Positions 16,054 to 60,803 of a stretch of 64,000 nucleotides of DNA are shown here, piece by piece. The notes below the pieces were generated by a model that was not told the DNA's origin, made no database searches, and saw nothing but the letters and a program-made list of their open reading frames with translations. Source of the DNA: Impatiens glandulifera (Eukaryota > Streptophyta > Magnoliopsida > Ericales > Balsaminaceae); assembly GCF_907164915.1 (NCBI RefSeq), contig NC_061862.1:29901151-29965150 (forward strand). The letters run 5' to 3'. Position 1 is the stretch's first letter, and each line of letters begins with the position of its first letter. The position numbers and the translations under genes were made by a program.

Positions 16054-16055
16054 GT

Positions 16056-29655: not shown

Positions 29656-29673
29656 GAGAAGCGTGAGCTTCTC
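29656..29673 (-). other. Conserved hairpin after element C pol
   Basis: GAGAAGC GTGA GCTTCTC, 7-bp arms and 4-base loop, 61 bases beyond the pol stop. The identical 18-mer in the same element orientation is found after pol in D (42494-42511). The surrounding AAAACCGGGG/TGAAAAACC bases are conserved too. Confidence 0.65.
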
Positions 29674-36067: not shown

Positions 36068-37278
36068 TGTTAGAAAAATTGAGTAGATTAATTTTAACCG
36101 GCCAAAAGACTTAATCAATCTCAATCTTCTTGTGCAGGTACAGATCAAACCGGCTGAAGTACTAAACTAAATGCTCTGGTCATAGTTTACGAAACCGACT
36201 GAACTCCTGAACCGGATCGGCTTGCAAAGGCTGATTCATCCGGCTGACACATTCTTATTGAAGATCGTAAAAGTTCAACGGAAAATATGAAAAGTGGCAA
36301 ATCTGAGAAAATGACGTAATATGACGATATAAAGATTTCTCGAAAATACAAAAGAAGATAAGATCCGGATCAGAAGCATGCAACGAAAACAATGATGAAA
36401 CTGGTTATCTAACTCTACAAGCAACATCAGATTCATGCGACTCTGACTTGGTGCATGCATGCCATGTGTCAAAAATGCAAGCCAGTCTAAGTGCATGACT
36501 GCCAAGTGTCCGATATGACAAAGCGTGCACGCAACCTCTAAACCGGATCGACGTGGCTTCAAATGACCAATCAAGCGGAAAGAGAAAATTATGACCGTTG
36601 TCATATCTTCTCTATAAATAGAAGCCAATGGTGCCGAAGATACATACGTGTGAGATCATTTACGAAAAAGCTCATACAAGAGAGAAGCAATAGAAACAAA
36701 AGATCTTACGTACCACCTCGAATAATGATTGAAATTCTGAAAGTGTCTTTGTATTGTGTGTATTTTACCAAGTGTAAAAAGTATTGTATTACATCATTGT
36801 GAGTGGTGTAACTGACGAGCTGTTACTCGTTCGAATTGTGTAGTGTGGTTGTGTAATATTCTTTAGTGAATATCCTTCTCACTGTTTGATAAGAAGGGGT
36901 GACGTAGGAGATTAAACTTCGAACATCCATAAAATCTTGTCTCATGTTCTTTACTTTCATATTCCGGCTTACTCACTCAAACCTAACTGAAACATCTAAA
37001 CCGAGATAACTAATATAATCCTAAATCAAACCAGTTCTTTTCTTAAACCGATATCTCCTAAATAACATCCAAACCGAACTATGTGTGTTGCTTCAAGTTG
37101 AAACAAACCATTTTCCGCACTTGAACCCAGTTCAAGAGGTTTGTGACAGCTTGCGTAGTGTTAAGAAGCAGTTTTAGTCTCTAACAGGACTATTACCAAT
37201 ATTGTGTGTGTTGTTGTGTAAGCGTTCACCCTTTGAAACCGGAACCCCGGTCCTCCAAGGGCGATCCCGATCCTAACA
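36068..37278 (+). repeat. Element D 5' LTR (1211 bp)
   Basis: TGTTAGAAAAATTGAG...GATCCTAACA. Promoter elements: palindrome ATGACCGTTGTCAT (36591-36604) and TATAAATA (36613-36620). It has ~50 bp near its 3' end (around 37070-37120) that are deleted from the 3' LTR. Confidence 0.9.
36591..36620 (+). promoter_or_regulatory. Element D LTR promoter
   Basis: Palindrome with MYB core (CCGTTG/CAACGG) followed eight bases later by TATAAATA. The 3' LTR copy (about 49567-49600) has one change in the palindrome centre. Confidence 0.65.
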
Positions 37279-37280
37279 AG

Positions 37281-37292
37281 TGTTATCAAAGC
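37281..37292 (+). other. Element D primer binding site
   Basis: TGTTATCAAAGC, a two-base variant of the iMet site TGGTATCAGAGC, two bases after the LTR. Confidence 0.75.
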
Positions 37293-37323
37293 AGGAATCT
37301 TAACACTCAAGCAACCGAAGAAA

Positions 37324-38967
37324 ATGGGGTTGGGAAACATGACCCACAATGACAAGCCACCGATGCTAAACAGTGAAGGATTTAGCGGCTGTAAGAAACA
37401 AATGTATTTACATCTGATCAAGCTCGATGATGAGATGAACAAAGTTCTAAAGGAGGGTCCGATAAAGCTCAACAAGGAGACGGAAGAATGGACGACTGAA
37501 GATTGAAGAAGAAACAACCTGGACAACCATTGCATGAGACATATCTTCAAAGCGATATATGACAACACGTTCAACAAAATTTCAGATTGTCAAAATGCAA
37601 AGGAAGCCTGGGAAACGATCATTCAGATCCATGAGGGAAATGAAAAAACTAAGGAGAACAAAATCTTGGTGGCAACTCAAAAATATGAGAACATCAAGAT
37701 AAAACCGAGAGAAAACATGAAAGAGTTCAGTGACCGGTTCACTAGTGTAGTCAATGAGCTACACACACTTGGAAAGAGATATTACAACTGGGAGATCATC
37801 ATAAAAGGCTTGAGATCTTTACCAAGTGCATGGGACATCAAAACCATGGTGATGAGGGAATCAAGCAACCTTGGACAGATGAAGATGCACAATGTGTTTG
37901 AGGATCTGAAAGCTTATGAATTCGAGATAAAATTTCGGATCGAAGATGAAGCATCAATCTCAACCGCAACCAGATCCTTGGTGACATCAGTGGAACCGGC
38001 GGTCCATGTATTAACCGTTGCGGCTCCCGTTAAAACCGCTGACCAGATTAGTGAAGACGTGATGGTCATGCTATCTCAAAAATTTGGGAGATTCATGAAG
38101 AAGAATCAACCATCGAACAACAACTTCAACTAAAACTATGCCGATAAATCAAATGTAAGATGTTTTAACTGTGACGGTTTTAGTCATTATAGGTCAGAAT
38201 GCAGGAAACCGAGGAGAGATGATCAAAAACCGGGAAACAACTATCAGGGAAACAACTACCACATGAATGATTACCAAAGAAACGACAACCAAGGAAACAA
38301 CTATCAAAGAAACAACAATCTGCAAACCGGTGCAGGAAATGAAATCCAGAAGGCACTTATCGAATCCGACGGCGGAAGCGATTGGGCTAACTCCGATACC
38401 GAAAACGACGAAGAAAGAATCACATGCTTCATGGCACATGATGAAGAGGTATTTAATTTCGCATCTGATGAATTTACTAAATAAGATTTAGTTACTGCAC
38501 TCAACGACATGGTCCCTGAGTTCAGAAACTTGTCTACTTATATACCGACCCGGTCAAACTATGAAACTAGAGAGTCAAGTGATACCGCTGGTGAGCCATG
38601 CAAAACCACGGTATATGAACCGGTCGGACTATCCTTAGAGAATGAGAAGCTCAAGGAGATAGTCCAACCGGTAACCAAAAAAGATGAAAGAACCAAATAT
38701 GTTACGGCTGCTTGGGAAAGATCCCGTGAAGCTGTAAATCAAATGTGTAACTATAAAAGACATCCTAAATGCAAATACGATATCGGTTACGAAAACAAAA
38801 GATCCGACAATAAGACCTCTTTAAACGGGATGAAACTCACAAAAGACAATCTTCCTTTCATAAGATTTGTCAAGAGCTCTTCAGCCGACACTGAGGCAGA
38901 ACATAACCTAAAACCGGAAAAAGAGTTAAAATATGTAAGTCCAACCGAAGAAATGGCTTCGTCCTGA
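37324..38967 (+). pseudogene. Element D gag
   Basis: One continuous frame from the ATG at 37324, interrupted by in-frame stops at 37504, 38131 and 38482 only. Capsid-like N-terminus (DEMNKVLKEGPIKL), then the copia gag core (TKENKILVATQKYENIKIKP, FSDRFTSVVNELHTLG, LPSAWDIKTMVMRES). A CCHC zinc knuckle CFNCDGFSHYRSEC follows (~38162-38205), then an Asn/Gln-rich stretch, an acidic region, and a tail (NLPFIRFVKSSS) shared with elements A and C. Confidence 0.88.
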
Positions 38968-39200
38968 AAGAAGGAAAGCCATCCGGTTAGTAAACAGACA
39001 AACCAACACACGTTCAACAAGAACTAATATACCATCACCATCATGACAACATAAGGTACTCTTCGGCAGACAAGAAACTGTCAAACCGGGTACCGGTAAA
39101 TCAATTAGAACTATCACTGGGAAAATAATCCGACTTATTAAAGTTTGGATCCCAAAGGGACTAATCAACCACAGACCCAACTGAATGTGGGTACCAGAAA

Positions 39201-39224
39201 GGTGTAAATATTTATTTTTTGCAG
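39201..39224 (+). other. T-rich CAG motif at the gag-pol junction
   Basis: GTGTAAATATTTATTTTTTGCAG lies just before the protease frame. A near copy is at the same place in element C (51092-51114, minus strand). Element A has a TGCAG there too. It looks like a 3' splice site, but no matching donor is proven. Confidence 0.35.
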
Positions 39225-42200
39225 GTTAAGAGGAGCTTGCGGCTGGAAAACTCGGAATGGTACTTGGATAGTGAGTGTTCAAGACACATGACCGGCAACA
39301 GCGGACTTCTAGCCGATATCATCTATGAAACCGGAGCAATGATCACTTTTGGTGACAACTCAAAAGGTAGAACCGTGGGCAAGGGTAAGATTGTCCATGG
39401 TAACCTGTCCATAAATAACGTACATTTAGTTAGAAAACTTGCATTTTAACTTATTAAGTATAAGTCAAATGTGTGATATAGGGTACACGGTTGAATTTCA
39501 TATGCATGCATGCATTGTTAAAAATCATTAAGGTGATACACTATTAACCGGAAACCGAATGGGAAATATTTACAAAGTTGATTGGAAAACTAAAAATGAA
39601 AATCCTGTTTGCATGATAGCTAGGAATGATCCAAACTGGCTCTGGCATAAACGACTAAACCATCTGAACTTCAAAACCTTAAACTTTATATGCTCTAAAT
39701 AATTGGTTCATGGTTTTCCAAACATCAAATTTTCCAAAGATAAAGTATGTGCTACATGTGAAATGGGAAAACAAATAAAATCATCTTTTAAAAGCAATGA
39801 AAACTTTCAATCCGAAAGATGTTTAGAACTTTTTCATATGGATCTGTTTGGTCCGGTTAGAGTAACTAGTCTAGGAGGCATGCAATATACCATGGTAGTT
39901 ATTGATGATTATTCTAGATTTACTTGGGTAACATTTTTTGAACTTAAAAGTCAAGCTACACAAAACCTGATAAAACTACTTTTGAGAATACAAAATGAGA
40001 AGTCTATTTGAATTGACCGAATCAGAAGTGATAGAGGAACCAAATTTACAAATCGTACTTTAACTACTTTTCTTAATGATTCTAGTATTAGGCACGAGTT
40101 GTCTAGTGCTAGAACACCTCAACAAAACGGCCTGACTGAGAGAAGAAACCGAACTCTCAAGGAAGCCACAAGGTCCATGATAGCCGATTCGGGTGTTGCT
40201 CAAAAATTTTGGGTCGAAGCTATCAACACTTCTTATTATACTCAAAACCGGTCTTTAATTACTAAACGTTTTACTAAAAATCCTTTTGAAATATACTATG
40301 ACAAAGTTCCTAATATCCGGTATCTCATGATCTTTGGATGTAAGTGTTATATTCACATAACAACAAAAGTTATTTGACCGCATTTGATGCAAAATCCGAT
40401 GAAGGAATAATGTTGGGCTATTCAGTCGTAAGTAAAGCATATAGAGTTTATAACACTAGATCTTTAACGGTTGAAGAAACATCTCATGTTGTTTTTGATG
40501 AATCGGTTGAACGAAACACTGCATTACCCTTCGACCTTCACAATAGAATGGAAAATTTCAATATCTATTCTGATGATGAAGATGAGGTTCCGGTCTATAG
40601 ACGGTTTGTCAATGATCAAGCGGTTGATGCTGAACCTCAGCCTGATCAAGTTGCTTTACCGCAGAAAGTTGACGCTTTAGTTTCAACTGAAGAAATCGGT
40701 CGGCCTGACCTTGTTCAGCCTACCGATCAGTTTAACCTTGATCAGCCAACCAAACGCTTGGAAGACACGTCCCGGATAAACCTCAGAAGGAATAAAAATC
40801 ATCATCTTGAACTAGTAATAGGTAACATCTAATCACCCATCCGAACTAGGCGACATAATTTGGAACACTATGAAAACTTAGCTTTCATATCACAAATTGG
40901 GCCGAAAAAGGTGGATGAAGCTTTGCTAGATCCCAATTGGATTTTAGCAATGCAAGAGGAATTAAACGAGTTTGAGAGAAATAAAGTCTGGTACTTAGTC
41001 CCTAAACCGAAACATAAATCGGTCATAGGAACAAGATGGGTATTCAGAAATGAATTCAATGAAGACGGTTTAATTACGAGGAAGAAAACCCGACTAGTGG
41101 CTCAAGGTTACAAACATGAAGAATGCATTGATTTTGAAGAATCATTTGCTCCTGTTACTAGACTTGAGGTTATTAGAATATTTTTGGCATTTGCAGCTTT
41201 CAAAAATTTCAAAGTTTTTCAAATAGATGTTAAAAGTGATTTTCTAAATGGTAAAATAAATGAAATGTGTATGTTGATCAACCTACAGGTTTTAAAAATC
41301 CAGAACACGTGAATTATGTTTACCGGCTAAATAAAGCCCTTTACGATTTGAAACAGGCTCCAAGAGCCTAGTATGACACATTAACAACATTTTTATTTGA
41401 TCACAAGTTTACAATAGGTTCGGTTGATTAAACCTTTTTCAAATTTGAGAAAAAAGAACACATATTACTTGTTCAAATATATGTTGATGATATTATCTTC
41501 GGATCAACCAATCCAAAATTATGTGATAAATTCTCAAAAATGATGACTAATAAATTTCAAATGAGTATGATGGGAGAATTAAGTTTCTTCTTAGGTCTTC
41601 AGGTCAAGTAGATCGAAACCGGAACCTTCATAAGACAGCCAAAATACACAGTCAAACTATTGAAGAAATTCGGAATGGACACATGTGTCGAGGCGGCTAC
41701 ACCGATGAGCTCATCCGTAAAGCTAGATAAAGACGAGGACGATCAAGTAGTAGACATAACGACATATCGAGGAATCATCGGTTCACTACTTTACCTAACA
41801 TCCAGTCGACCAGACATTCTATTCGCGGTCGGAGTATGCGGGAGATTTCAAGCCAATCCAAAGCAATCACACTATACCGCGGCTAAACGGATCCTAAAAT
41901 ATCTGAAAGAAACCAAAGACGTGGGATTATGGTATCCAAAAGACTCTAGTTTTAATCTAATAAGTTATTCTGATGCAGACTACGCAGGCTGCAAGATCGA
42001 ATGAAAGAGTACAAGTGGGACTTGTCAGTTTCTGGGAGACCGGCTGGTCTCATGGTATAGCAAAAAGAAGACCTCAGTTGCTACTTCAACCGTAGAGGCG
42101 GAGTACCTAGCAGCCGGAAGCTGCTGTGCACAACTCCTCTGGATCCAACAACAACTTAAGAATTTCGGTGTAACCGCCGAAGAATCTCCAATCTTCTGTG

Positions 42201-42436
42201 ACAACACAAACGCAATAGCAATCACATATAATCCAGTGTTGCACTCAAGAACTAAACACATTGACATAATACATCATTTCATCTGGGAGCATGTGCAGCA
42301 AAAACACATCCGACTGGAGTATGTCTCAACCGAACATCAAGTGACTGATATCTTCACCAAACCGCTATAGGAAGCTAAGTTTTCTTACTTCAGAAATATT
42401 TTAGGACTTACTGATAGTAAACAACTTATGCCATGA
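39219..42436 (+). pseudogene. Element D pol: protease, integrase, RT, RNase H
   Basis: Protease (39219-39449): active site DSECSRHMTG where the family has DSGCS. Integrase: zinc-binding region to CATCEMGK (~39750), catalytic residues in FHMDLFGPV, IRSDRGTKF and QQNGLTERRNRT (to 40377). RT (40860-41560): [37 protein letters not shown] with YVDD intact, GSLLYLTSSRP. RNase H (to 42436): ISYSDADYAGC, TSGTCQFLG, VATSTVEAEYLAAG, end TKPL-EAKFSYFRNILG. Frameshifts near 40370 and 41260 and about eight in-frame stops. The protein would process, reverse transcribe and integrate the element; this copy is inactive. Confidence 0.9.
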
Positions 42437-42493
42437 CAGTAATGCATGCTTTCAAAAATACATCATCATGAAAAACCGGGGTATGAACTCAGG

Positions 42494-42511
42494 GAGAAGC
42501 TCACGCTTCTC
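42494..42511 (+). other. Conserved hairpin after element D pol
   Basis: GAGAAGC TCAC GCTTCTC, 7-bp arms and 4-base loop, 58 bases after the pol stop. It is the exact equivalent of 29656-29673 in element C. Confidence 0.65.
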
Positions 42512-43062
42512 AAGCCGTACCTCAATAGGAAATTGAACATTCAAGGATGCTAACCGGAAAGATATCTCCGGTTATGTCTAACAAATTCATACTACCAAAC
42601 CACATGTATCTATATTGAGCGGTTCAAATGACTTAGTAAACTAGATAGTTTAATCTAAAGATGAACAAATGTCGATTCGTTTCGATATTTCTTCACACCG
42701 GAATAAGATATCTCGATAAAATAAGTCATGGAAAACCAACCAATAAAATGGATCATGATTTCAGTAAACTGAAGTTTTCCTGCTAACTTGGGACGGCTGG
42801 CCATTTTTCATGCATACCTTAAAAATGGAACCTATAAATCATAAAAACAGTCAACCTCAATCGAGATGACGGCACGTGTCCATCATCAAGAGAGGAAGAC
42901 TAACATTTTGTCCATATATTTATTTTCATCATGAAAATCTTTAGTCATCATTACTATTGCATTGGAACTAAACATTGTACATCTAAACAAGTTAACCTCA
43001 TATTAATTACTTGATGACCTTACTAAGCACGCTTACATCCTTAACCAAGCCGAACCCTTGGC

Positions 43063-43070
43063 TATATAAA
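43063..43070 (+). promoter_or_regulatory. Element D X1 TATA box
   Basis: TATATAAA in GCTATATAAACAACC, 75-82 bp before the X1 ATG. The aligned position in C is CATTTAAATA. X2 and X3 have the same octamer. Confidence 0.6.
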
Positions 43071-43144
43071 CAACCCTTCATATCTCAAAATAGTTCACAA
43101 AAATATTATCAACAAAATACTTGAGCAAATATTATCACAAGAAC

Positions 43145-43906
43145 ATGAACTCCTCTCCTCTCTCTAAGAAGATCCTCTTAGCCGACTTCAATTCAATCTA
43201 CCAATATGAAGATTACAGCATTAAGGAGTTTTTCATTGCCCTTGAAAAAACCGGGCTAAGAAAATTCTTGGAGAATTGTTTCATCATCGACTACTTGGTA
43301 GTTGATGAATTATTTGAAACCGCTAAAGAAGTGCACCGGGACATCATCCTGGCGCAAGTCTATAGCCAAACCTTTCTATTCAGCGAGACGGATTTCGCTG
43401 AATACTGCGGTTTACCCACTGAAGGGGTAACTGATCTCACATACTCTCCGGTGACCATTGAAGAAATGTGTCACCTGTTCTAAAGCTCTAACATCCCGGT
43501 TAAAACCTGGGGTCCTAAGAGCCAACTTTCTCACAAGTACCAGATTCTCAGCGAGATTCTGGGAAAAACAGTTTTGGGTAGGGAAAATAGCTACTAATAT
43601 ACCCAACAAATGTTTGAAATGATGATTGCTATCACGGTTGGCACCCCGGTCAACTAGTCCTAGATCATCTTCAGCAATCTAAAGAAGATGATCACCACAA
43701 ACAAAACCGGCTACGCTCCTCAGCTGAGCGGCTTTTACGTAAGTCTTGACATCCACTCCGGATTTTTTGTCACTCTCCACCCGAAGCATGTGCTAAACAA
43801 AGGAGAGAATCCAAGAGATGATCTACAGATGAGAAAAGGCAACGACTAAGAAGACCTCAACCGTTGGATCATCCAACGTTTAATCTTTTCATGTCCTTTC
43901 TTTTAA
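43145..43906 (+). pseudogene. Element D gene X1: transposon-protein domain
   Basis: The ATG at 43145 (MNSSPLSKK); one frame runs to 43906 with several internal stops (the first at 43481). The N-terminal part is the X domain: KTGLRKFLENCFIIDYLVVD, ILAQVYSQTFLFSETDFAEY, CGLPTEGVTDLTY. The second half reads QQMFEMMIAITVGTPVN, IIFSNLKKM, TGYAPQLSGFYVS. About 254 codons. No signal peptide, no membrane segment and no Env-like feature were seen. It is homologous to X2 and the X3 N-terminus, consistent with tandem gene duplication inside the element. Resembles the Pfam 'putative plant transposon protein' domain. Role unknown. Confidence 0.78.
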
Positions 43907-43942
43907 TCGAATCATGCCATCTCATTTTTCTTAGTCTACATA

Positions 43943-43968
43943 ACCGGTAATTTTGCTGTACTACCGGT
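43943..43968 (+). terminator. 3' motif after element D X1
   Basis: ACCGGT AATTTTGCTGTACT ACCGGT, 37 bases after the X1 stop; same layout as the inverted repeats after X2 in C and D. The loop contains a TGTA element like those upstream of plant poly(A) sites. Confidence 0.4.
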
Positions 43969-44250
43969 ACGATACACCTTTATTGAAAATCATTTCCTTC
44001 CTCTTTTAGCCACATCTTGAATCATAAATATTTTGAAAAATATCTTACACAAAATAATCTCAAATCATCATTGGAAACATAAATATTTATTTCCTAGAAG
44101 GCGTGCCTAGTCCGGATAGACTAGACAGTGTACAACGCACCTTTCCAGAACAGATTATTCTCTTGAAAAGGCATCAAGCATTTAATGACTATACATAAAC
44201 GGTCAGATTTTTCAAAATATTTTCATTAAATGTTTCTCAACCGCCTGCAC

Positions 44251-44258
44251 TATATAAA
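44251..44258 (+). promoter_or_regulatory. Element D X2 TATA box
   Basis: TATATAAA in CACTATATAAAGACA, 104 bp before the X2 ATG; the counterpart in element C is CTATTTAAG. Confidence 0.6.
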
Positions 44259-44361
44259 GACATTATCACTCTTCAAACAAATCACATTTCAAAAGTATCT
44301 TTCTCTCTCTATATTTTGAACCTTCACCTTCATATTTCCGTCTCTCAATTTGTTCTTCAAG

Positions 44362-45116
44362 ATGAATGCTAAACTTCGGAACTCAATCATCGTTGACTTT
44401 GAATCAGTTATGAACTCCAGATTTGAAGGTGTTCTTATTCAACCTCTACTCATATCCGGATTACGAACCTTCCTTGAAGGATCGGACACCATCCTCAAAG
44501 ATGAGGTGCACGAGTTCTTCAACAACGGACACGTAAGGGACGATGACAGCATCGTTAATTTCATTGAAGGTGTATTACATCAGCTCACTGAAGAGTCATT
44601 CACAAATTTCTTCAACCTACCATCCGAAGGTTTTTCGGATTTTCCAACCCCTCACTTTCCAGCAAAAGAAGACTACTCATTTATCTTCTTCGGCACCACT
44701 AATCCGGTTGAAGACCACAATCTGAAAGATGACATAGCTCCTCACTTCCAAGTCCTTCAAGACTTGATCTAGCGGTCCATTCTGGGCAGAATGACGAATC
44801 AAAACTACTCTCGGGAAGTGTTTGATCTCATGATCTCTATAATCAAACTCTCGCCCATAAACTGGGCCTCATTTCTCTTCAACAACTTGAAGGAGCTCAT
44901 CAAAGCTCCAAGAAGACGAATCGACTTTCCCCCCAAATAAGCCGATACATCCGCTCCGTCATTCCAAATTGCGGACCCGGAGTCCTGGTAGGTCCGGCCA
45001 ACACACTGACCGACCACATGATGGAAAGCTGGATCGGAAGAATCGAGAACCGGACCGGTAACACCGTAGAGGAATGGATCGAGAGAATGAGAGAAGGAAA
45101 CTACTATAATTTTTAA
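44362..45116 (+). pseudogene. Element D gene X2: transposon-protein domain
   Basis: The ATG at 44362 (MNAKLRN). X domain: SGLRTFLEGSDTILKDEVHE, SIVNFIEGV, FFNLPSEGFSDFPTP. A stop at 44770 and a frameshift near 44935 precede the C-terminal part (VFDLMISIIKLSPINWASFL, then a segment ending MMESWIGRIENRTG). It ends at 45116, giving ~250 codons, like X2 of C. Homologous to X1 and the X3 N-terminus. Function unknown. Confidence 0.78.
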
Positions 45117-45141
45117 AAGTCTTTATTGTTTCCGGTCACAT

Positions 45142-45167
45142 CGGTTATTTTGTTGTACGACCAGGTG
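45142..45167 (+). terminator. 3' motif after element D X2
   Basis: CGGTTATTTTGTTGTACGACCAGG, 26 bases after the X2 stop; matches the perfect inverted repeat after X2 in element C but with weaker arms. Confidence 0.4.
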
Positions 45168-45419
45168 ACTATCCATGTAATCATTTCCTTCGGATTAATT
45201 TATAATAGTTTCACTTTCTCTAAAACTTCCGGCTTAACACAACTCTCAACACTAACATAAAATTCCGGTTCAACATAACGCTTCCAACTTAACACAAATT
45301 TTCAAACTTAATATAATTTTCCCAGTTTACCAAAACTTCGGTTAAACTTTAAAAGCTTCCGGTTAACCAAAGCTTCCGGTTAAAACAATAAATCTCAAAC
45401 ATTGACATTACGGATAAAC

Positions 45420-45605
45420 TTCAAATTAACCGCCAATAGTTTACCGCCAACAGTTACCGCCCCTAGATTACCACTCAAATTTACCTCTCTTATTTACCGC
45501 CAAAAAGTTACTACAGTAACTTTTGGAGGAAAATTTTGGCGCCAAAACCAAGAACCAAGCGACGCTTCAGTTCCTTAACCGTCAAGTAACCACCCACTAT
45601 ATAAA
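45420..45605 (+). promoter_or_regulatory. Element D X3 promoter: TTACCGCC repeats, E2F palindrome, TATA box
   Basis: Four or more copies of (T)TACCGCC lie between 45425 and 45512. TTTTGGCGCCAAAA (45534-45547) is a perfect palindrome containing the E2F consensus on both strands. TATATAAA (45598-45605) lies 110 bp before the ATG. All three features are present upstream of X3 in element C. Cell-cycle (S-phase) control is inferred from the motif only. Confidence 0.6.
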
Positions 45606-45714
45606 TTGAAAGTTAAATCATTATCAATCCCTGCTCTCTCTCTCTCTAGAAACTCAAAAGCAAATCTGTCTCTCTCGATCATCTTCATCATTTTCATCAT
45701 CTTCATCAATCACC

Positions 45715-48632
45715 ATGGGACGAGATAACCCTCTTTTCACCTACATCTTGCAGGTCGACTTCAAAAACATCGACAAAAATGGAACCAGTGAATACAAGAC
45801 CTTGATCGGATCATTGAGAGAATCTGGGCTAGAAACGTTTCTCTCTGGTCCGTTTGTTCTTCATCAGGATGAAGTCCTGGAGTTCCTCAACCAGGAAAGT
45901 CTGACGAAGAGAACCATCACCGCCACCGTGAGCGGCACTACCTTTGAGATTACCGAGGAACTGTTTGCTGAAGCCCTTAGTTTACCAACCGTCGAAAGGG
46001 ATTTCCAAACCGGTCTATCAGAAGCCGACTCCGCGGTGGTCCGACTAGCACTTTCAAAAGATGCGGGTGACCTGGTGGATCACATTAATGGGAAGAAGAC
46101 ATTAAAGCCAGAGTTCTGATGGCTTCTTGATATCGTCTCCAAATCCCTACAAGGAAAATGAGGAAATTTTGATAACATGACCTGACTGAAGCTAGAAATG
46201 ATTATGGCCATAGTCCACAGTGACAAGATTGATTGGGGTTATGTTTTATTCGAGCAACTATGCGAAGTGGTTTCCAAGACAAAGGATCGGGTCCAAGCTT
46301 ATGCCATGTCGATCGGGAAAATTCTTGAACACTTAAAGATTCGAATAAGTGAAGATACACCTCTCTCTAACTCCAAAATCATGAATGCTGAGAGTGTACA
46401 GACCCGGGTTGTTAAACCGGCAAAAGAAAGTGCTCCAAGGACCAGGGGTTCTAAGGAAGCAGAATCGGCTGCACCGGAAGGCGTAGATCCTCAAGAAGCC
46501 GAGCCGAAAGGTAAGGGCAAAGCTAAAGCAACCGAAGCGGCGAAAGAAAAGACATGAAGAGTAAAATCTGCGGCTAAGAAAACCATAAAGACGACAAAGA
46601 AGAAAGCGACCAGCCAAACTATCAACTCCGAGAAAACTCCATCTCCTAGGGCCTCCCCTCGTCCAAACGATCCATTAATGACTTGTTCCTATAAGAGTTG
46701 TGTTTCCAGTTCTGAGTCACTCACCCCCGATTAGAGAATCGGAGGGAGCCGGACCAGTCCCTATCGCACGACAAGCCAATTCATCAGGAAGCCAGGTCAC
46801 ACAAGCTCAATCTAAGAGAAATCCGTCCACTCTTCTCACTCTAAATCTATTGAGAAAGTGGTACAAGATGTCACTCGTGCTAATGAAGACGAGGTGACAA
46901 GTGTTCTTGGAGAAACTGGTCAGGTCGGTGCGACTGATTAGATCAAGATCAATCCGGTCGAAGAAACGATCAATACTGAAACTATAATCCCTCCGGTGAG
47001 AGAGGGTGATAATGAAGAAAGACAACCATCCGGTCCGGCTGTGGGAGACTCTATCCCAACCGGATCCAACCCAGAACCGGCTCAAGAAGGGCAAGTGAAC
47101 CAAGATATTATGCCGGAAGGCTCAAATCCGGGTAATGAAGAAAATCAAGAAGTAACTAAAGATGATCCTCCGGTGCATGGAGGAAACGAATCTCAAAATG
47201 GGTCAACCGGTCCCACTACTCAGGAACCAAAACAAACCGAGATCATACCGGAATCTGCTCCTACGGTTTCTGAACAGGAAGTAGAGGAATGTTTCAGCTA
47301 CTATCAACTCATCTGGAGGAAGCGGCTGAAGGAATAGTGCGTCCTTATCGCTTATGGGGCAGTGTTAGAAGCCAAACCAAATTATCACACATGCTTCCCG
47401 ATCTTACCGGAAAAAAGTACTGGTCGGAACTGTTGATCATTGAGGAGGAAGCTCTCGGTCTTGTGAAAACCGATATTATTTCGATGGCTTTAGCAAGAGG
47501 GTCCCTGATCAATGAACATGCCAGACTGAAGGTATTGGATGAAGCTTTCAAGAACGTTCAAAGGGATCCAAATGAAATGGAAAAAATTATGATTGAACGG
47601 TTCACCAAGGTGAGAAACGATACCCTCCTCAACATTAACCGGCTAGATGAAGAACTAGTACCGGTATGTAGTGACTGTATCTTGCATCTGGAAGATTACC
47701 GAAGTAAGCCAATCTTTAAAATCGGTGAATGCTCTAGAGCAGCAGGGAACCGAGAAGAAGGCCTACAACCGCATCCAAATGAGGATAAAGTCGATAGTCT
47801 CATCCATTCAAGTAAGTCCCATTCTCACTCTGCCTCTAGGGATAATAATTCCACCGACCAAAAGAAATCAAAAACTGTAATGTCTGTTCATACACAACCA
47901 AGTCGGGATATTGAGCATACATCTGAATACATCAAGGGTATCATCGATAATGCTGTTGCCACTTCAATGAATGAATGGCACAATGTCACGGAAGCAAGAA
48001 CCTCTACCCTCAAAGACGAGTTGATTGAATCGGTTAAACAAACAGTTGAGTCATGAACCGCTCCGTTGTTAGAAATGATGCAACTTATGGCGGCTCAAAT
48101 TGAGGAGCTGATAAAGTTAAAAGCGGCAAACACTCAAGACTTGATCCGATCCGATGCGGAAGCAGCCCTTCGAATTCAAGCTGAAGAGAAAAAAGAAGAA
48201 CGATTGAGAAAAAAACAGGAGGAAAATGACTCGAGAATAGCCCGGGAATTTGATGAGGCAGAAAAGGCGAAACAAGCTAAGCCAGTTCAGGCTGAAGGAA
48301 TTGTGACAGGGCGACATGATAAAAGAAAAAAGATAGCCGATCTGTTGACAGGGATGGAACAAAGTGGTCTTCAAGGTCCACAGCCGGATGATCACCCAAA
48401 CCGACCCATAGCAGATAAAGAAGAAGAAGATGACACTCCTCTACGACCAAGGAAGAAGAAAGCTGCACCGTCCTCATTCGCTTTATCAACAAGCCAAGGA
48501 ACATCAACCGTTCCTCCTTCTCGACCACCCAGACCGACAAGTGGATCTTTCCGGTTCAACAACTTACCTCCCGGAAGAACAAGACTTTTAGCCGAATGGA
48601 GCATGGATGCGGATCGAAGAGCAAGGGAATGA
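45715..48632 (+). pseudogene. Element D gene X3: transposon-protein domain plus long polar and coiled-coil tail
   Basis: The ATG at 45715 in a good context (CACCATGGG). About 970 codons, one frameshift near 47300 and about six in-frame stops. X domain: ESGLETFLSGPFVLHQDEVL, TVSGTTFEITEELFAEALSL; then KLEMIMAIVHSDKIDWGYVL. Next is a Lys/Ala/Glu-rich basic region (46400-46620; KGKGKAKATEAAKEKT) that could bind nucleic acid, and a Pro/Gly/Asn/Glu-rich linker (46990-47330). An alpha-helical part follows (47340-48056; MLPDLTGKKYWSELLIIEEE), then a coiled coil rich in Glu/Lys/Arg (48066-48290) and a Ser/Pro tail (PPSRPPRPTSGSFRFNNLPP). No transmembrane segment is visible. Relatives occur in C, F and G. 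Function unknown. Confidence 0.78.
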
Positions 48633-48863
48633 GAGGCCGAGTAGGAGAAAAGGCTCAAAGAGAAAGAAAAGGGAGGGCCATCTGATCCATAACTTACTTA
48701 CTTATTTTCTGTCTTGAACTTATGAACTTATTACCCCTACATTCCGCTTATTTTATCTTATTTATGAAGTTAGCTTTTGAAAAATCAAACTCTTTCAACC
48801 AGCTTAGGTTCATCATACATATTTCAAAACAGCATATTTTGACACTTTTCTTTGAAAAGTATC

Positions 48864-49055
48864 AAAAATGGAGAAATTGCTAAAAATATTTTTCAAAACC
48901 ATTTTTAAACCGGCCATACATTACAAGTTTTGAATATTTATTCTAAATAATCAAAAAGGGAGAAATTGTTAGAAAAATTAAGGAAGTTAATTTTTAAACC
49001 GGTCATACATTACAAGTTTTGAATATTTATTCTAAATAATCAAAAAGGGAGAAAT
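48864..49055 (+). repeat. Element D multiplied polypurine tract
   Basis: Three polypurine tracts at 48864-48878 (AAAAATGGAGAAATTG form), 48952-48966 and 49041-49055 (AAAAAGGGAGAAATTG form). The first two are each followed by an imitation U3 start (TGCTAAAAAT or TGTTAGAAAAATTAAG); units are about 89-90 bp. Only the last adjoins the real LTR. Confidence 0.8.
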
Positions 49056-50210
49056 TGTTAGAAAAATTAAGTAGATTAATTTTAATCTCAATTTTCTTGT
49101 GCAGGTACAGATCAAGCCGTATCAAGCCGGCTGAAGTAAAAAATTAAATGATCCGGTCATAGTTTACGAAACCGACTGAACTCCTCAACCGGATCGGCTT
49201 GTAAAGGCTGATTCATCCGGCTGACACACTCTTATTGAAGATCGTAAAAGTTCAACGGAAAATATAAAAAATGGCGAATATGAGAAAATGACGTAATATG
49301 AGGATATAAAGATTTCTCGAAAATACAAAAGAAGATAAGATCCAGATCAGAAGCATGCAACGAAAACAATGATGAAACTAGTTATCTAACTCTACAAGCA
49401 ACATCAGATTCAGGCGGCTCTGACTTGGTGCATGAATTCCATGTGTCAAAAATGCAAGCCAACCTAAGTGCATGACTGCCAAGTGTCCGATATGACAAAG
49501 CGTGCACGCAACCTCTAAACCGGATCGGCGTGGCTTCAAGTGACCAATCAAGCGGAGAGAGAAAATTATGAACGTTGTCATATCTTCTCTATAAATAGAA
49601 GCCAATGGTGCCGAAGATACATACGCGTGAGATCATTTACGAAAAAGCTCATACAAGAGAGAAGCAACAGAAACAAAAGATCTTACATACCACCTCGAAT
49701 AGTGATTGAAATTCTGAAAGTGTTTGTGTATTGTGTGTATTTTACCAAGTGTAAAAAGTATTGTATTACATCATTGTGAGTGGTGTAACCGACGAGCTGT
49801 TACTCGTTCGGATTGTGTGGTGTGGTTGTGTAATATTCCTTAGTGAATATCCTTCTCACTGTTTGAGAAGAAGGGGTGACGTAGGAAATTAAACTCCGAA
49901 CATCCATAAAATCTTGTCTCGTGTTCTTTACTTTCATATTCCGGCTTACTCACTCAAACCTAATCGAAACATCTAAATCGAGATAACTAATATATTCATA
50001 ACTCAAACCGGTTCTTTCCTTAAACCGATATCTCTTAAATAACCATCCGCACTTGAACCCGGTTTAAGAGGTTTGTGACAGCTTGCGTACTATTAAGAAG
50101 CGGTTTTAGTCTCTAACCGGACTATTACCAATATTGTGTGTGTTGTTGTGTAAGCGTTCACCCTTTGAAACCAGAACCCTGGTCCTCCAAGGGCGATTCC
50201 GATCCTAACA
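49056..50210 (+). repeat. Element D 3' LTR (1155 bp)
   Basis: TGTTAGAAAAATTAAG...GATCCTAACA, ~96% similar to the 5' LTR where compared. It lacks ~20 bp near its start (GGCCAAAAGACTT in the 5' copy) and ~50 bp near 50040. Confidence 0.9.
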
Positions 50211-53047: not shown

Positions 53048-53645
53048 TGATAGGATCGACTTTATCGATAGAGATGGGGGTCTGACTAAGGATGAAGGCT
53101 TATGAAAAACGGTTTGAAAGAAATCCTGTTAGGGATTTAATTCGCTTTCTATTCTCGCAAACACTTGTAAACACTTGAAACAGATTCAAGGCGGAATTGT
53201 TTACTTGGGTTTGAAGCACAATATGAAATATGAAGAGATGAAAGAAATGAAATAACACAGCACTTTGTTTATGAATGTTTGGAGAAACTCTCCTACGTCA
53301 CCGCTTCTTCCAACCACCGGAAGGATTCACTATAATATGATTCGAATCAAATACAGTTTACACACACTTAGCTCACTATTGAACATAACACTTTCTGTTC
53401 AATTACAAGATGAAGAATATCACTCAGCTAAATGTGTTTTGATTCTAGCTCTCTCTTGATTCACACACAGTACAATCAGAAAGCAGTTTCACAGTATGAG
53501 TATTCAAAGGCTTGAATTCAGTAAGCAAGAAGATCGAATAGTTTTTTTCTCTGTAAAATCCGAATGCTTGTTCGTTTTCTAAGGCCGATTATCCGTTGTC
53601 CTTTATTTTAATAGAATGGCAAATGTCATTGTTGATCTTCAGGAC
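53048..53645 (-). repeat. Element E left (3') LTR, truncated
   Basis: Aligns with 54793-55350 up to CCGATTATCCGTTGTCCTTT (about 53608). It then runs ~40 bp further into sequence that may be LTR before joining the gag tail directly. The U3 side and all of pol are missing. Confidence 0.75.
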
Positions 53646-53652
53646 TGTGTAC

Positions 53653-54747
53653 TTAGAAGAGTACTCTTCTAGCTCCCTTCCTGCACTCCTCAGTCTCCTG
53701 AGTTCTATTTTCATCTTCTCTTGCCATGAAGCACGCCACCTCTTCTTCATCACTTTCACTGGATGAAAAATAGGAGCTACGACTGCTTCCTCTATTCTTC
53801 CCGTCACCTGCCATACGAGCCTTCAGCTCTTTTCCATCATCCTTGGCATCTTCACGCTTTGGCTTCTGGAATTCCGATGCATAATGCCCTTTAATACCAT
53901 AGTTAAAACAAGTAACATTAGTTTTAGATTTTTTATTGTCATTAGAATTTGAAGAGTTTGAGTTAGAGTTGCTTTTCTTCATGAAGTCGCCAAACTTCTT
54001 CACAAAGAGAGACATGGCATCGCTGCTCAGCTGCTGAGCTGCCATCTTCACATCCGGAGCGGTTGGTGGCTTTTCAGCAGTCACCAACGCCTTGGAAATG
54101 ATAACGGACGTGGGTTGATCTTCTTCCATCCTACAGTTCAGCTCGAACTCATAGGACTTGAGATCAGCAAAGAGATCAAAGAGAGAGATTTTGTTAAAAT
54201 CTTTGGATTCTCTCATCGCCATAGTCTTTATGTCCCATTCCCTTGGAAGAGCACGCATGACCTTGATAGCAAGCTCCCGGTTGCTATAGGTCTTACCTAG
54301 GATAGACAGAGAGGAGACGATCTTGCTGAATTTAGTGTTGAAATCGTTCATTGTTTCACCAGGACGCATCTTGAAGCTATCAAACTGTTGAGTGGCAACC
54401 ATGATCTTGTTTTCCTTGGTTTGCTCGTTGCCCTCGCACAGTTGAGTGAGTCTGTCCCAAACCACTTTGGTAGTATCGCATTCGATAATGTAGTTGAACA
54501 TGCTGTCATCGAGAGATCTGTATAGAACATCAAGAGCCATGTTGTTGAGATTGTTCTGCCTCTTTTCATCAGCGGTCCAGTAAGCTTTCTCCTTATCAAT
54601 CTTGATAGGACCTTCTGTGACAACGTTCCACATATCATCATGAAGAGAAGAGAGATGAGCACGAACTCTTTTCTTCCAAACAATATAGTTTTCTCGAGAG
54701 AAAGTTGGAATGGCTGTAGCACTAGCATCTATGGTTATGGTCGACAT
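53653..54747 (-). CDS. Element E gag (intact ORF)
   Basis: A 364-codon uninterrupted frame from the ATG at 54747, 32 bases from the primer site. Copia gag: PTFSRENYIVWKKRVRAHLS, DDMWNVVTEGPIKIDKEK, TKENKIMVATQQFDSFKMRP, LPREWDIKTMAMRES. The zinc knuckle reads CFNYGIKGHYASEF: the second cysteine and the last cysteine are replaced, so it should not bind zinc. A Ser/Glu-rich tail (SYFSSSESDEEEVACFMA) follows. The last ~20 codons read into the deletion junction with the truncated LTR. It is related to, but distinct from, the gags of A, C and D. Confidence 0.85.
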   Translation of the reverse strand: MSTITIDASATAIPTFSRENYIVWKKRVRAHLSSLHDDMWNVVTEGPIKIDKEKAYWTADEKRQNNLNNMALDVLYRSLDDSMFNYIIECDTTKVVWDRLTQLCEGNEQTKENKIMVATQQFDSFKMRPGETMNDFNTKFSKIVSSLSILGKTYSNRELAIKVMRALPREWDIKTMAMRESKDFNKISLFDLFADLKSYEFELNCRMEEDQPTSVIISKALVTAEKPPTAPDVKMAAQQLSSDAMSLFVKKFGDFMKKSNSNSNSSNSNDNKKSKTNVTCFNYGIKGHYASEFQKPKREDAKDDGKELKARMAGDGKNRGSSRSSYFSSSESDEEEVACFMAREDENRTQETEECRKGARRVLF

Positions 54748-54778
54748 ATTTCAGAAAAGGCTTGAGAATAGAAACAAG

Positions 54779-54790
54779 GCTCTGATACCA
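54779..54790 (-). other. Element E primer binding site (tRNA-iMet)
   Basis: TGGTATCAGAGC on the minus strand, two bases from the LTR. Confidence 0.88.
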
Positions 54791-55800
54791 ATTGATAGGA
54801 TCTTCTTTATAGATAGAGACGGGGGTCTGACTAAGGACGAAGGCTTATGAAAAACGGTTTGAAAGAAATCCTGTTAGGGATTTAATTCGCTTTCTATTCT
54901 ACGCAAATACTTGTAAACACTTGAAACAGATTCAAGAAATAATTGTTTACTTGGGTTTGAAGTACAAGATGAAATATGAAGAGATGACAGAAATGAAATA
55001 ACACAGCAATTTGTTTATGGATATTCGGAGAAACTCTCCTACGTCACCCGTTCTTCCAACCACCGAAAGATTCACTATAATATGATTCGAATCAAATACA
55101 GTTTACACACACTTAGCTCACTATTGAACAAAACAGTTTCTGTTCAATTACAAGATGAAGAATATCACTCGGCTAAAGGTGGTTTGATTCAAGCTCTCTC
55201 TTGATTCACACACAATACAATCAAAAAGCAGCTTCACTGTATGAGTATTCAAAGGCTTGAATTTAGTAAGCAAGAAGATATAATAGTTTTCTCTCTCTGT
55301 AAAATCCGATTGCTTGTTCGTTTTCTAAGGCCGATTGTCCATTGTCCTTTAGATTTGTTAAATACTGAGCAAGAGCTAACGATCGAATCTTTTAGAATGA
55401 TACGTGGCACTCTTCCATTGGAAAGCCTCCATTGTATACAACAGGTTCTGAGCACAAGGATCGTGGCCGTACACCACTGGTAGTGCACCGAATATTCCAT
55501 TAGGATATACCTGCAAAAAAGGTAATGTGAGGAAAATTTTCTTACGTGGCATTCCTTGGTTGGTTGCATATAGCTGTTGTACTAATCTTCACTAGAAAGT
55601 GGAGCAGGAGTAGGGTACAACTATAGCACGTGGGTAGGTGAAATGCTAACTTCAAGCAAACTGCTTAAACTGAGCATTAGACGTATTTCAGTTAGACGGA
55701 CTGTGAAAATCAGTCTAATGAAATCAAGCATCTCCTTTTAATAACCGAATCTAACAGACCGCCTGGTCTAATAGAATTAGACTACATGTCTAATTACAAT

Positions 55801-56705
55801 AACCATTTGATTGCACGTCTAACTCCACTGAGTTAGACTGCACGTCTAATTTCGGTTCTACCTCAGACTAATCTGAAGGAGTTAGACTTACGTCTAACTT
55901 TCACTTAATTAGACTACGTCTAATTATCCAATAGCCATTAGACTGCACGTCTAACTCCACTGAGTTAGACTTCACGTCTAATTCCGGTTCTACCTCAAAC
56001 TAATCTGAAGGAGTTAGACTTACGTCTAACTTTCACTTAATTAGACTACACGTCTAATTATCCACTAACCATTAGACTGCACGTCTAACTCCACTGAGTT
56101 AGACTGCACATCTAATTCAGGTTCTACCTCAAACTAATCTGAAGGAGTTAGACTTACGTCTAACTTTCACTTAATTAGACTACACGTCTAATTTTCCAAT
56201 AACCATTAGACTGCACGTCTAACTCCACTGAGTTAGACTGCACGTTTAATTCCGGTTCTACCTCAGACTAATTTGAAGGAGTTAACTTACGTCTAACTTT
56301 CACTTAATTAGACTACACGTCTAATTTTCCAATAACCATTAGACTGCACGTCTAATTCCGGTTCTACCTCAGACTAACTTGAAGGAGTTAGACTTACGTC
56401 TAACTTTCACTTAATTAGACTTCACGTCTAATTATCCAATAACCATTAGACTGCACGTCTAACTCCATTGAGTTAGACTGCACGTTTAATTCTGGTTCTA
56501 CCTCAGACTAATCTGAAGGAGTTAGACTTATGTCTAACTTTCACTTAATTAGACTACACGTCTAATTATCTAATAACCATTAGACTGCACGCCTAACTCC
56601 ACTGAGTTAGACCGCACGTCTAATTCCGGTTCTACCTCAGACTAATCTGTAGGAGTTAGACTTACGTCTAACTTTCACTTAATTAGACTACACGTCTAAT
56701 TCCGC
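55801..56705. repeat. ~134-bp tandem array, seven units, rich in TTAGAC...GTCTAA palindromes
   Basis: Units start with (A)ACCATTAGACTGCACG-like sequence at 55801, 55932, 56067, 56201, 56334, 56441 and 56574. The fifth is ~27 bp short. Each unit holds several TTAGACN(1-6)GTCTAA inverted pairs. Confidence 0.9.
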
Positions 56706-56740
56706 ACATATTAGACTATCCGTCTAATTACACGTCTATT

Positions 56741-57135
56741 AGACTACATGTCTAACTCCGACGAGTTAGACTGTACGTCTAATTCCGAGTATCTATTAGA
56801 CCATCCGTCTAATTCCATGTATATTAGACTTGGGTCTAATTCTATACATTCATTAGACTACACGTCTAACTCCGATGAGTTAGACTGTACGTCTAATTCT
56901 ATGCATTCATTAGACTTCATGTCTAACTCCGATGAGTTAGAATGTATGTCTAATTCTATACATTCATTAGACTACACGTCTAACTCCGATGAGTTAAACT
57001 GTACGTCTAATTCTATGCATTCATTAGACTACACGTCTAACTCCGATGAGTTAGACTGTACGTCTAATTCTATGCATTCATTAGACTACACGTGTAACTC
57101 CGATGAGTTAGACTGTACGTCTAATTCTATGCATC
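56741..57135. repeat. 57-bp tandem array, five regular units plus degenerate flanks
   Basis: Regular units start (CATTAGACT) at 56851, 56908, 56965, 57022 and 57079, exactly 57 bp apart. They use the same TTAGAC/GTCTAA module as the neighbouring array. Because 57 is divisible by three, one frame is open and yields a repeated 19-residue peptide. Confidence 0.9.
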
Positions 57136-57462: not shown

Positions 57463-60400
57463 TTATTGTTCTTCCCTTTTAACTCGAGGATCGGTTGGAC
57501 TTATATCTTGACCGAGAACCATGTTGAAGAAGGAAGGATAGCCGCGACCACCACGACCGCCTCCACTTGATCTACCACCACTTTCATTACCGCTGCCACG
57601 ACCACCTTGATCAACATTGGCTAGCCTACTACGACCACCACCACTTCGACCTCCACAATCATTACCGCTTTGACCTCCACCTCTCTTGGTTGGCCTAGGA
57701 TTATCATCGGTGCTTGGAGCTCGCCTGGATCTAGTGCCGGTTGACACACCATCATATCTTTTACTTGTCTCGCCTTGGGTGGGTCGATATTGATCTTTCT
57801 CAGCATTAGCCTTTGCGTCCTCCTTTGCTTAAAACTTCCTTGCAATGGAGTCAGCAAATTCCTGTCGTTCGTTATCATTTCTACTCAAACAACCCTGAAT
57901 TTCCACCGTCTGATTATTCACCAGACTGAATTCTTCTAAGGTCTCTTTATGACGTTCATCATTGAATTGTCTTTCAATGTACAATAATTCACTTTGACGG
58001 ATGAAGAGTTACTTTTCAAACTTTGAGAAGTTTAGATTTGAGACATGAGTCTCATATGTGTTCTTCTTCAGAGTGTTATCTAGTTCAGTAAGGACCTTGA
58101 TAATCTCACAAAATCCCTTTCTTTCTTCTTCCTTCGTGTTCATGGCCTTTGTCATGGTCTTCTGAATAGATGAAAGCACAAACTTCATAGACCTTAACAT
58201 CTTTTTTCCTTCGGCATAAGATTCTTCATGTGATGAAATCTCTTCAGACTCTGCTGCCATGCTCTAAATTGGCTCAAAGTTTGTGTGAATCTGCAAGGAT
58301 TGCTCCGGTTGATTCTTTTCGGCATTCTTAGTAGCTTCATTCTTCTTTTCTTCTAACAATTCTTCTTCAGCTCTCTGAAATCTCTCATATAAATTTCCAG
58401 AGTAGTGAAGAGGAATGTTGATATTTTCATGAACATTTCCTGCAATAGTGTCGGGAAATAGACGGGACTTCTTAAAAGTTGCTTGTTGATCTTATTCCTC
58501 CTCAGATGAGGAACTTTCTTTTTCAATGACCTTCTCTTTGGAGGGTTCCCCTTTAGATCTGATAGTTTCTGGATGAGTTACCTTGGCCACTTTCTCTTGA
58601 ACTTCCTATGATCTCACAACAGAGGTTATCGCAACATCTTCTTCAAGAGGAGCTTGAACAACTTCCTCAATCACACCTTCCACATGAACTTCTTCTTCAT
58701 TTGTCTCTAGGGCTTGTTTAGGCTCTTGGACAATCACTTCTTCTTCTTTATTCAGATTCTCTTGAATTGGTTGATCTAGAATGCGTCTCTCTTCGGCAGA
58801 AAGATTCCCGAATTCGATCAAGAGAGCAACATCTAGCTCATCAACATCGTTGTCAGCATCAAGAATATCCATAGCTTCATCATCATCGAAAGGCTTTGCG
58901 CCAGAGCAATCGGCGCCATGGACGTATTGGGAAATAGTCGAAACGTAACCGTCCAAGATGTCGTTCAACCTTTTCAAAACTTTCAATTCAACTTCAGATC
59001 CTTTCTCAGCAGGGTTGAAGTTAGCCTTTCTGGCTTCAAAGATTGGGAAAAGAGGTTTTCCATACAGGCAAGCTTCCACTAGATCTTTTCTCTTCAGAGC
59101 CTCAGCAACCTCTGAAGTTCTTGTCCATTTAAGAACTTTCTTTTCATTTGCTACCCGCTTCTTCTATTCTTTTGTTATTGCAGAGTTCGTCAGAGAATTA
59201 TTGTACTTGGATGACAGTCTCTCCAGGCACCATGATTCAAAAATCTCCAGTTTCTCAGCCATAATGACTTTAACCTGATCTAAAATGAGGTCAACAATCC
59301 TTGTTGCCTCCGATACCTTTTCAGGAACTTGAGTTGCGATTTTATTACCTTTTCCAACAATCTCTACGGGTTTTAGAGCAGGTCTGGGTTCACCGAACAC
59401 GATTCCACCTGTCTGTCTTTTGGAACTCATCAGTTCGAACGCTGATTGGGGTTTCTTATAGAGCTCAGCAGGGAGCTCCACACGAATAACTATTCCAGCT
59501 ACCAATGAATCTTTATAGAGCGGGAACAGTGGGTTCATGTTCAACAGATTGACCAACAACAAGGGTAAGAGCAACACCTTGTTCTGGTTGAGATGACTCT
59601 GTAGCACCAACGGCTACTAGATCAGTTGGAACAACACGAGACTCAATCCTTTCAATATTTTCAACATTTGGACCGGCTGACTCAACAGCAGATCCTTCAG
59701 CAAATTCCCTTAAGGGAGAGAATACAAATTCAGCTTGTTCCACAATAGGAACATCAAACTTAGGCACAACGACCAAAGACTTAGAAGAAGTTACCTTTAA
59801 AGATTTAGACGCGCGGGGCGCCTTCGTCTTCTTCTCCTTTGAGACACAGGATCTCGAAGGCTTCCTCAAGATGGTTGAGGGAGTAGATAGTGAGGACATC
59901 GGAGTTGCAACAAGTACGCCTGGACCTTCCCTTAACTTTGAATCGACAGATTCAGAGTCCTTCTTGTTTGAACTCTTCAGACTGGAGGAACTGGCCTCCG
60001 ATTCATTCACTGTTTTCGATCTCTTTGCCCCTGTTGACATGATAGAAGTAGACGGTTGCTTGGATCGGGTAGAGGGCTTTCCACCAGTTTAGAGACTAGA
60101 TGCACCAGATGCAGATTCTAGATTGTTCTTCATCCTCATCGGTGTGTTAGCCACTGTAAAGGCAGTGAATACTCTTGGAGAGTTGATCTGCACAGGTTCA
60201 CCAACAGGAACCCCCAAATGCTTTAACAAATGACTTAGTTGAGCCGCAAACGTTATGCTTTCCTTGTTCGTCTGACAGGTCGAGAAGCACAAGTTCTGGA
60301 AAAGGGTATGAGCCCAGTTTACCTGGATTCTCTTTGAAATAGCACACATATAGTCAAAACGGTCTTGACTATAGAGATGGAAAGAGCCAGATTTCCCTTG

Positions 60401-60803
60401 TAGCGCCTTTGCCACCACGTCGTTCAGCAGAATGAAATGCGGTTTAAATGCCTTCTTGAGTCCATTAACATGGATTATTGAGCCATCGACAGAAAAGGTT
60501 CTCTTCATCTCCTCCATGATTTCAAGTGAAAGGATCAAGTTGAACGAGTGCCTTTCCGTTGGAAGTTCAAAGAACTCCGCATAAACTGCTTCATCGAAGG
60601 AGAACTCTATGTCGTTGACGGTTGCTACGATGGATTCACCCACCATAGTTGGTGATTTGAAGAACTCGCGAACTTCTTTTTCATAGAATATGAACGGACC
60701 TCCAAGATAATTCCTTAACCCAGAATATTCTAGGGTTCAGAACATCTCCACCACCTCCGGTTGATCGAAAGTGTACACCGATGGAAAATTCACCTACAAG
60801 GTA
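57463..60803 (-). pseudogene. Element F X gene: transposon-protein domain, acidic region, coiled coil, Gly/Arg-rich tail
   Basis: The N-terminus is cut by element G at 60804. X domain: SGLRNYLGGPFIFYEKEVRE, FFELPTERHSFN (60089-60720). Second half: RFDYMCAISKRIQVNWAHTL and SHLLKHLGVPVGE, matching X1-X3. Then a Ser/Lys-rich region (59513-60040), a conserved helical part (59164-59610), a Glu-rich acidic stretch (58606-59079), a coiled coil (58009-58260; LTELDNTLKK) and a Gly/Arg-rich C-terminus (57463-57747; SGGGRGGRGY) that may bind RNA. About 1,100 codons with several stops and shifts. It is the F counterpart of X3, followed by the polypurine tract. Function unknown. Confidence 0.72.

Follow-up and report, generated by a model that had tools for sequence, protein, structure and literature searches.

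What does the extra gene of Sirevirus-type retrotransposons do, and from what promoter might it be expressed? In 74% of Sirevirus (SIRE) elements an extra open reading frame (ORF) lies between pol and the 3' long terminal repeat (LTR) (PMC6317226); its function is unproven, and it is possibly no true envelope gene (PMC3414828). A 64,000-nt stretch of Impatiens glandulifera DNA (NC_061862.1, 29,901,151-29,965,150; hereafter the window), filled with nested plant LTR retrotransposons, raises this question threefold: two of its copia elements, C and D, each hold three paralogous genes at that position, X1, X2 and X3, which have been under selection in frame and are related to the Pfam family Transposase_32. 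We give about an even chance to the explanation that a Sirevirus-like copia lineage has here three accessory genes, each transcribed separately, whose products would share the fold of the Arabidopsis protein VANC21, bind DNA and counter silencing.

Three paralogous genes between pol and the 3' LTR

The first-pass annotation, made from the letters of the window, had described X1, X2 and X3 as lying in the same order between RNase H and the 3' LTR of two well-diverged elements on opposite strands, and the frames were located accordingly in both (C on the forward strand, D on the reverse, about 65-67% identical in DNA). X1 and X2 are single-domain frames of ~240 residues each, found in C at 43145-43846 (X1, broken by stops) and 44362-45113 (X2, one in-frame stop and then a frameshift), and in D at 28969-28267 and 27824-27083 (both broken). 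X3 joins the X domain to a long charged tail with lysine/arginine (K/R) clusters in C (45715-48632, broken), and to a tail in D (26562-23426, broken). Within the window the complete triad was found in C and D only, and stops or frameshifts interrupt every copy of it. The preceding frames, which we take to be RNase H, end at 42367 in C and 29737 in D; the C frame (42005-42367) had no RNase H match in the Pfam scan. Programmed stop-codon readthrough was entertained for X2, where a stop stands at the matching place in both elements (TAG in C, TAA in D), and dropped because the stops of X1 and X3 sit elsewhere and decay explains those of X2 equally well.

Are the three genes copies of one another? 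In BLASTP comparisons of 22 pieces from the window, a tiny set to which the E-values refer, all 12 cross-type pairs of N-terminal domains matched, at E 1e-12 to 1e-3 (D X1-X2, 1e-12; D X1-X3, 7e-10; C X2-X3, 1e-7; C X1-X2, 3e-6; weakest, C X2-D X3, 1e-3). An all-against-all profile comparison, the check proposed with the first-pass annotation, gave HHalign probabilities of 99.5% for X1-X2 (E 6e-23), 98.6% for X1-X3 (5e-16) and 98.5% for X2-X3 (1.5e-15) when C and D were paired within each type, over 215-235 columns, while column-shuffled X3 controls stayed at or below 0.4% in six of six cases. Identity between C and D is 50-56% for genes of the same type and 20-29% across types inside each element. 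The N-terminal pattern pointed out at the first pass recurs as well, with SGL, L, V.EFF, LP.E, M..I, W and F..L all among the columns invariant in five domains. These lines agree, and judged by their sequences X1, X2 and X3 are homologous across the whole domain, as the view of them as three tandem paralogues had it. In a FastTree phylogeny of seven domains, including a separate copy, F, described below, the C and D copies of each type group together (SH-like support 0.99), with X1 sister to X2 (0.98); since the grouping is by type, the triplication predates the split of C from D.

The X frames have been under selection. The ratio of nonsynonymous to synonymous differences per site (pN/pS) is 0.36 for X1, 0.40 for X2 and 0.42 for the X3 domain, next to 0.26 for pol, against 0.87-1.56 in six shifted-frame controls, the alignments having been built on protein, which favours the true frame. 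We quote no exact dN/dS, because synonymous sites are near saturation, and for the same reason we dropped a reading of the synonymous differences (0.71-0.84 in X, 0.48 in pol) as recombination of the X module against pol. These values bear directly on the notion that the X frames are passengers captured from host DNA with no function for the element: that every triad copy in the window is broken would suit it, but the same gene order in two elements so far diverged, together with in-frame pN/pS of 0.36-0.42, disfavours it, and we hold it to be very improbable.

Family and fold of the X domain

Taken singly, ten pieces gave no Pfam match above the cut-off and no Transposase_32 match at E up to 1, and the same family was absent for the scanned sequences P0001, P0003 and P0004 (E up to 10) and for F (E up to 1). 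The domain of D X2, with its one stop read through, is the best single match to Transposase_32 (PF20167; E 0.0014, 19 bits, profile positions 5-172 of 177), and a consensus of all seven sequences matches it at E 2.8e-9 (37.6 bits, positions 6-176 of 177, i.e. 171 positions), the next Pfam family standing at E 0.12. Because both scores lie below the Pfam gathering score of 45 bits, the X domain is a diverged relative of Transposase_32 and not a formal member. The Pfam search advised at the first pass was thus positive for the consensus and D X2 and negative for the other single sequences, and the family named there is right as to kinship. Transposase_32 has been reported in an extra ORF of sunflower Athila (PMC11728184, section 2.5), which resembles the X genes in its domain type and in being an additional ORF carried by an LTR retrotransposon of plants; the X genes differ in lying in copia rather than gypsy elements, in being three in tandem and in scoring below the gathering threshold.

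Searches farther afield returned little. In the protein database, P0002, alignment A4 and the profile consensus drew 192, 1914 and 1545 candidates, of which not one passed E 0.01, 0.1 and 0.01, respectively, a result that says little about plants because the plant content of that database is not known. None of 167 pattern matches in viral contigs was confirmed, and a single plasmid match (E 0.05, 24.7% identity) was taken as chance. A viral structure library yielded 321 matches, none at E 0.001 or better (among the best 50 of the 321, best E 0.36 and top query TM 0.18).

In structure comparison the best fold match for two X domains was VANC21 (PDB 9lnj), from the Arabidopsis transposon VANDAL21, and a VANC21-like fold of the X domain is supported, though not proven. 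The first-pass annotation had held that three tandem paralogues here were something other than an env gene, a reading that this putative likeness supports and sharpens. Short motifs in the noncoding repeats of its own transposon are bound by VANC21, and methylation is lost there as a result (PMC5735166, PMC10398659). Like the X proteins, VANC21 is encoded by a plant transposon with repeated noncoding motifs. The differences are that VANC21 belongs to a DNA transposon rather than a retrotransposon, has no detectable sequence similarity to X, and that X comes as three paralogues per element. The domain is mostly helical, which, with the selection that keeps the genes, would also suit a structural role as an extra gag-like or particle-associated protein that aids packaging; yet the X frames have no Pfam gag match, and the single nucleocapsid row in the structure lists (8y9j, TM 0.12) falls far below VANC21, so we regard such a role as quite improbable.

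A similarly low estimate, somewhat higher in our view, goes to X3, and perhaps X1 and X2, being a classical Sirevirus envelope-like protein acting at membranes or in cell-to-cell movement. The position between pol and the 3' LTR, where most SIRE elements have their extra ORF, speaks for it, as does a crude heptad test, nominally positive in two of six tail pieces, F_t5 and G_t3, neither of which comes from C or D (their scores were equalled in a fraction of 0.003 and 0.033 of shuffles, against 0.17-0.35 for the four tail pieces of C and D). Set against this are the K/R clusters, the fold match to a DNA-binding protein and the hydropathy of the C and D pieces, in which the highest 19-residue Kyte-Doolittle mean is 1.23; the transmembrane segment expected of an ENV-like protein is therefore missing from them by this measure, in line with the earlier remark that membrane segments are lacking, hydropathy being the sole basis and no dedicated predictor having been used. 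The mean rises to 1.68 in one piece of F, at its overlap with a different F frame. In any case an 'ENV-like gene' defined by position and a VANC-like nature are compatible. Compared by description rather than by ENV sequence (PMC2829016, PMC3414828, PMC6317226), the X genes share with the Sirevirus envelope-like gene its position, Sirevirus-like junctions and a motif cluster just 5' of X3, and differ in being three instead of one, in having no membrane segment and in the candidate promoters found. The TRP28 ORFs of Retand (Transposase_28, PF04195), with predicted DNA binding and a proposed regulatory role (PMC11963269), likewise lie between pol and the 3' LTR; they are antisense, of gypsy lineage and, as far as a comparison at Pfam level goes, of a different family.

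Candidate promoters and proposed target repeats

An internal promoter has been hypothesised for the Sirevirus extra gene and not conclusively identified, and repeated boxes occur just 5' of ENV in some Sireviruses (PMC2829016). The motif CTATATAAA agrees with the consensus for plant TATA boxes cited in that paper and occurs three times in the window, once before each X gene of C: at 43062-43070, 83 nt before the X1 ATG (43145); at 44250-44258, 112 nt before that of X2 (44362); and at 45597-45605, 118 nt before that of X3 (45715), all on the forward strand. The placement is out of the ordinary, TATATAAA being present in 1.1% of background 150-nt windows. The aligned sites in D read CCATTTAAATA (ATTTAAA) for X1, CTATTTAAGA (TATTTAA) for X2 and TATATAAA for X3.

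Upstream of X3, C and D show the same succession: first a repeat of CGGTTAA type, next a TTTACCGCC array, then a block with 22/24 positions conserved, and last the TATA box. In C, distal repeats with a TTCCGGTTAA-type motif occupy 45221-45374, a proximal TTTACCGCC array (~14-bp unit, four degenerate copies) 45425-45511, and the conserved block, holding TTTTGGCGCC, 45520-45547, on the forward strand; D has a tandem TTTACCGCC array of 14-bp period at 26772-26841 (reverse strand). CGGTTAA is found five times in the stretch between X2 and X3 of C (0.12 expected), and TTACCGC 13 times in the window (2.7 expected), with six of these inside the two arrays. We take TTTTGGCGCC to be E2F-like; E2F control of X3 was rejected as too weakly founded (TTTSGCGC, three seen and 1.45 expected). 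The stretches between X2 and X3 (D 26563-27082; C 45114-45714) also have the highest observed/expected CpG of the element regions compared (1.52 in D, 1.25 in C), at low G+C.

Several observations weigh against separate promoters and a VANC-like nature. The number of CTATATAAA sites is itself ordinary (shuffles expect 0.97, and eight of 100 reach three); a weight matrix run over D favoured different sites, none of them remarkable; and upstream of X2 no stretch is conserved between C and D at 19/24. DUF1985, which PMC5735166 names with DUF287 for VANC proteins, did not appear among the Pfam matches (E up to 10) of the consensus or of any of four read-through domains, and the X sequence profile drew three weak matches from the PDB, VANC21 not among them. 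With these points counted, an own TATA promoter for each X gene is supported but not proven.

We propose that the three genes would be transcribed separately, each from its own TATA promoter and not as a spliced env message; that the proteins, to go by the K/R clusters of X3, may enter the nucleus; and that, on the analogy of VANC21, they would bind short motifs repeated in the noncoding DNA of their own element, with those of the TTTACCGCC and CGGTTAA arrays upstream of X3 standing first among the candidates. In so doing they might keep the element free of DNA methylation and its promoters on; we infer this anti-silencing role because VANC21 binds motifs of its own element and removes methylation there. 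The same fold and motif evidence would also suit X proteins that act in the nucleus as DNA-binding transcription activators or autoregulators of the element and leave methylation unaffected, and the arrays sit in the X3 promoter region, where an autoregulator would bind; the fold relative, however, acts on methylation (PMC5735166), and we rate this alternative unlikely, with perhaps one chance in a few. Returning to an anti-silencing function, a broader form of it is offered more tentatively, as something short of an even bet: that the 'envelope-like' gene of Sireviruses is no envelope gene but, in this lineage, a triplicated, self-promoted set of VANC-type anti-silencing genes, with the same fold serving a retrotransposon and a DNA transposon in undoing host DNA methylation and with the noncoding repeat boxes of Sireviruses as targets.

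Host elements, further copies and wider meaning

Element C (36068-50210, forward strand, as bounded by its LTR pair) has LTRs of the form TGTTAG...CTAACA at 36068-37278 and 49056-50210 that are 94.6% identical (1145 aligned sites; Kimura two-parameter distance, K2P, 0.057), and TTAGA at both ends reads as a 5-bp target duplication. The 5' LTR is followed by TGTTATCAAAGC, presumably a primer-binding site (PBS). Its broken gag-pol (37507-42369, forward) has gag_2 and SH3_retrovirus by Pfam and reverse transcriptase (RT) by similarity to the RVT_2 frame of D; along gag-pol, C and D align at 72-79% identity. RVT_2 in D (E 5e-55) and gag_2 and SH3_retrovirus in C are the Ty1/copia gag and pol looked for in a Sirevirus. 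Before the 3' LTR, which AAAAAGGGAGAAAT precedes, an 89-bp tandem repeat (48861-49083, forward) with polypurine tract copies at 48955 and 49044 runs into the LTR start. It repeats the polypurine/attachment site AGGGAGAA-AT/TG, which matches the Sirevirus octamer AGGGGGAG at 6/8 bases; the AGGGGGAG-AT/TG rule itself has two variant elements in the set of PMC2829016. The CGG-CCG palindromic boxes of that paper form no clear array in the LTRs of C or D.

Element D (reverse strand) runs from its 5' LTR end near 52974 to 50211 and continues from 36067 as far as its 3' LTR (21855-23183, bounds by eye). C is thus nested in the pol of D on the opposite strand, which qualifies the finding of the triad in both; the insertion point corresponds to ~240 bp before the SH3_retrovirus domain of C and so, by position, to the integrase part of D. 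Spaced palindromes, GAGAAGC-TCAC-GCTTCTC and ACCGGA...TCCGGT, follow pol directly in both elements (C 42494-42511 and 42553-42572, forward; D 29656-29673 and 29502-29521, reverse).

A hidden Markov model (HMM) of the six domains found one further X domain in the window, F (60092-60736, reverse; 138.9 bits), a stop-free frame of 215 residues. It is 24-35% identical to the six and closest to X3 (HHalign 99.4%; X2 98.2%, X1 97.2%), and the beginning of the domain is missing from its frame; the LTR of another element ends at 60804. Downstream of the F frames lies a tandem array of 134-bp and 57-bp units (55775-57134) with 34 copies of the palindrome TTAGAC-N3-7-GTCTAA, which from its position would belong to the element of F. 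Also downstream of F, a frame at 57466-57828 (reverse) ends glycine-arginine rich (GGR/RGG-like) and could bind nucleic acid. In a set of 11 pieces, charged frames at 62389-63768 (reverse) matched the C and D X3 tails weakly, at E 0.002 and 0.003 at best, where shuffled controls came no lower than 0.12 and none of the F tail pieces did better than 0.022, and the label of X3 tail was withdrawn for these frames in view of those weak matches; they may be the last part of a further X3 gene that the window edge truncates. They precede a polypurine tract and an LTR (about 60804-62216, or from 62031).

Other elements are of different make. At 15682-19201 (forward) a Ty3/gypsy deletion derivative with 376-bp LTRs 99.7% identical keeps a stop-free frame of 925 residues with gag, zinc knuckle, protease, partial RT and SH3_Tf2-1, RNase H and the integrase core being absent among the Pfam families listed; it is a recent insertion that has kept a fused frame. 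In a mini element at 53048-55351 (reverse), presumably of TR-GAG type, direct repeats of ~560 bp (93%) enclose a copia gag frame of 365 residues; the element also has a TGGTATCAGAGCC primer site. A shrunken Sirevirus-like element at 8804-13548 has long direct repeats; of two frames scanned between these, one matched gag, and before its own 3' LTR stand 88-bp repeats resembling those of C. Rfam gave nothing at gathering score for the window, in which no tRNA was found either.

The general idea that extra ORFs modulate methylation is already in print: PMC12844716, in a discussion that includes VANC, raises the question whether LTR retrotransposons have their methylation modulated by their extra ORFs, and PMC11728184 proposes modulation of RNA silencing for another extra ORF. 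Among the matches listed, none linked Transposase_32 or Sirevirus extra ORFs to VANC in its title or abstract opening, in a search mostly confined to literature outside subscription. For the Sirevirus extra gene, the window supplies a domain family together with candidate promoters and a candidate fold, and therefore makes a direct test possible. If the link to VANC is true, anti-silencing would reach beyond a single group of DNA transposons and take in many plant retrotransposons, a large group, while Transposase_32, in spite of its name, would turn out to be a family of DNA-binding regulators.

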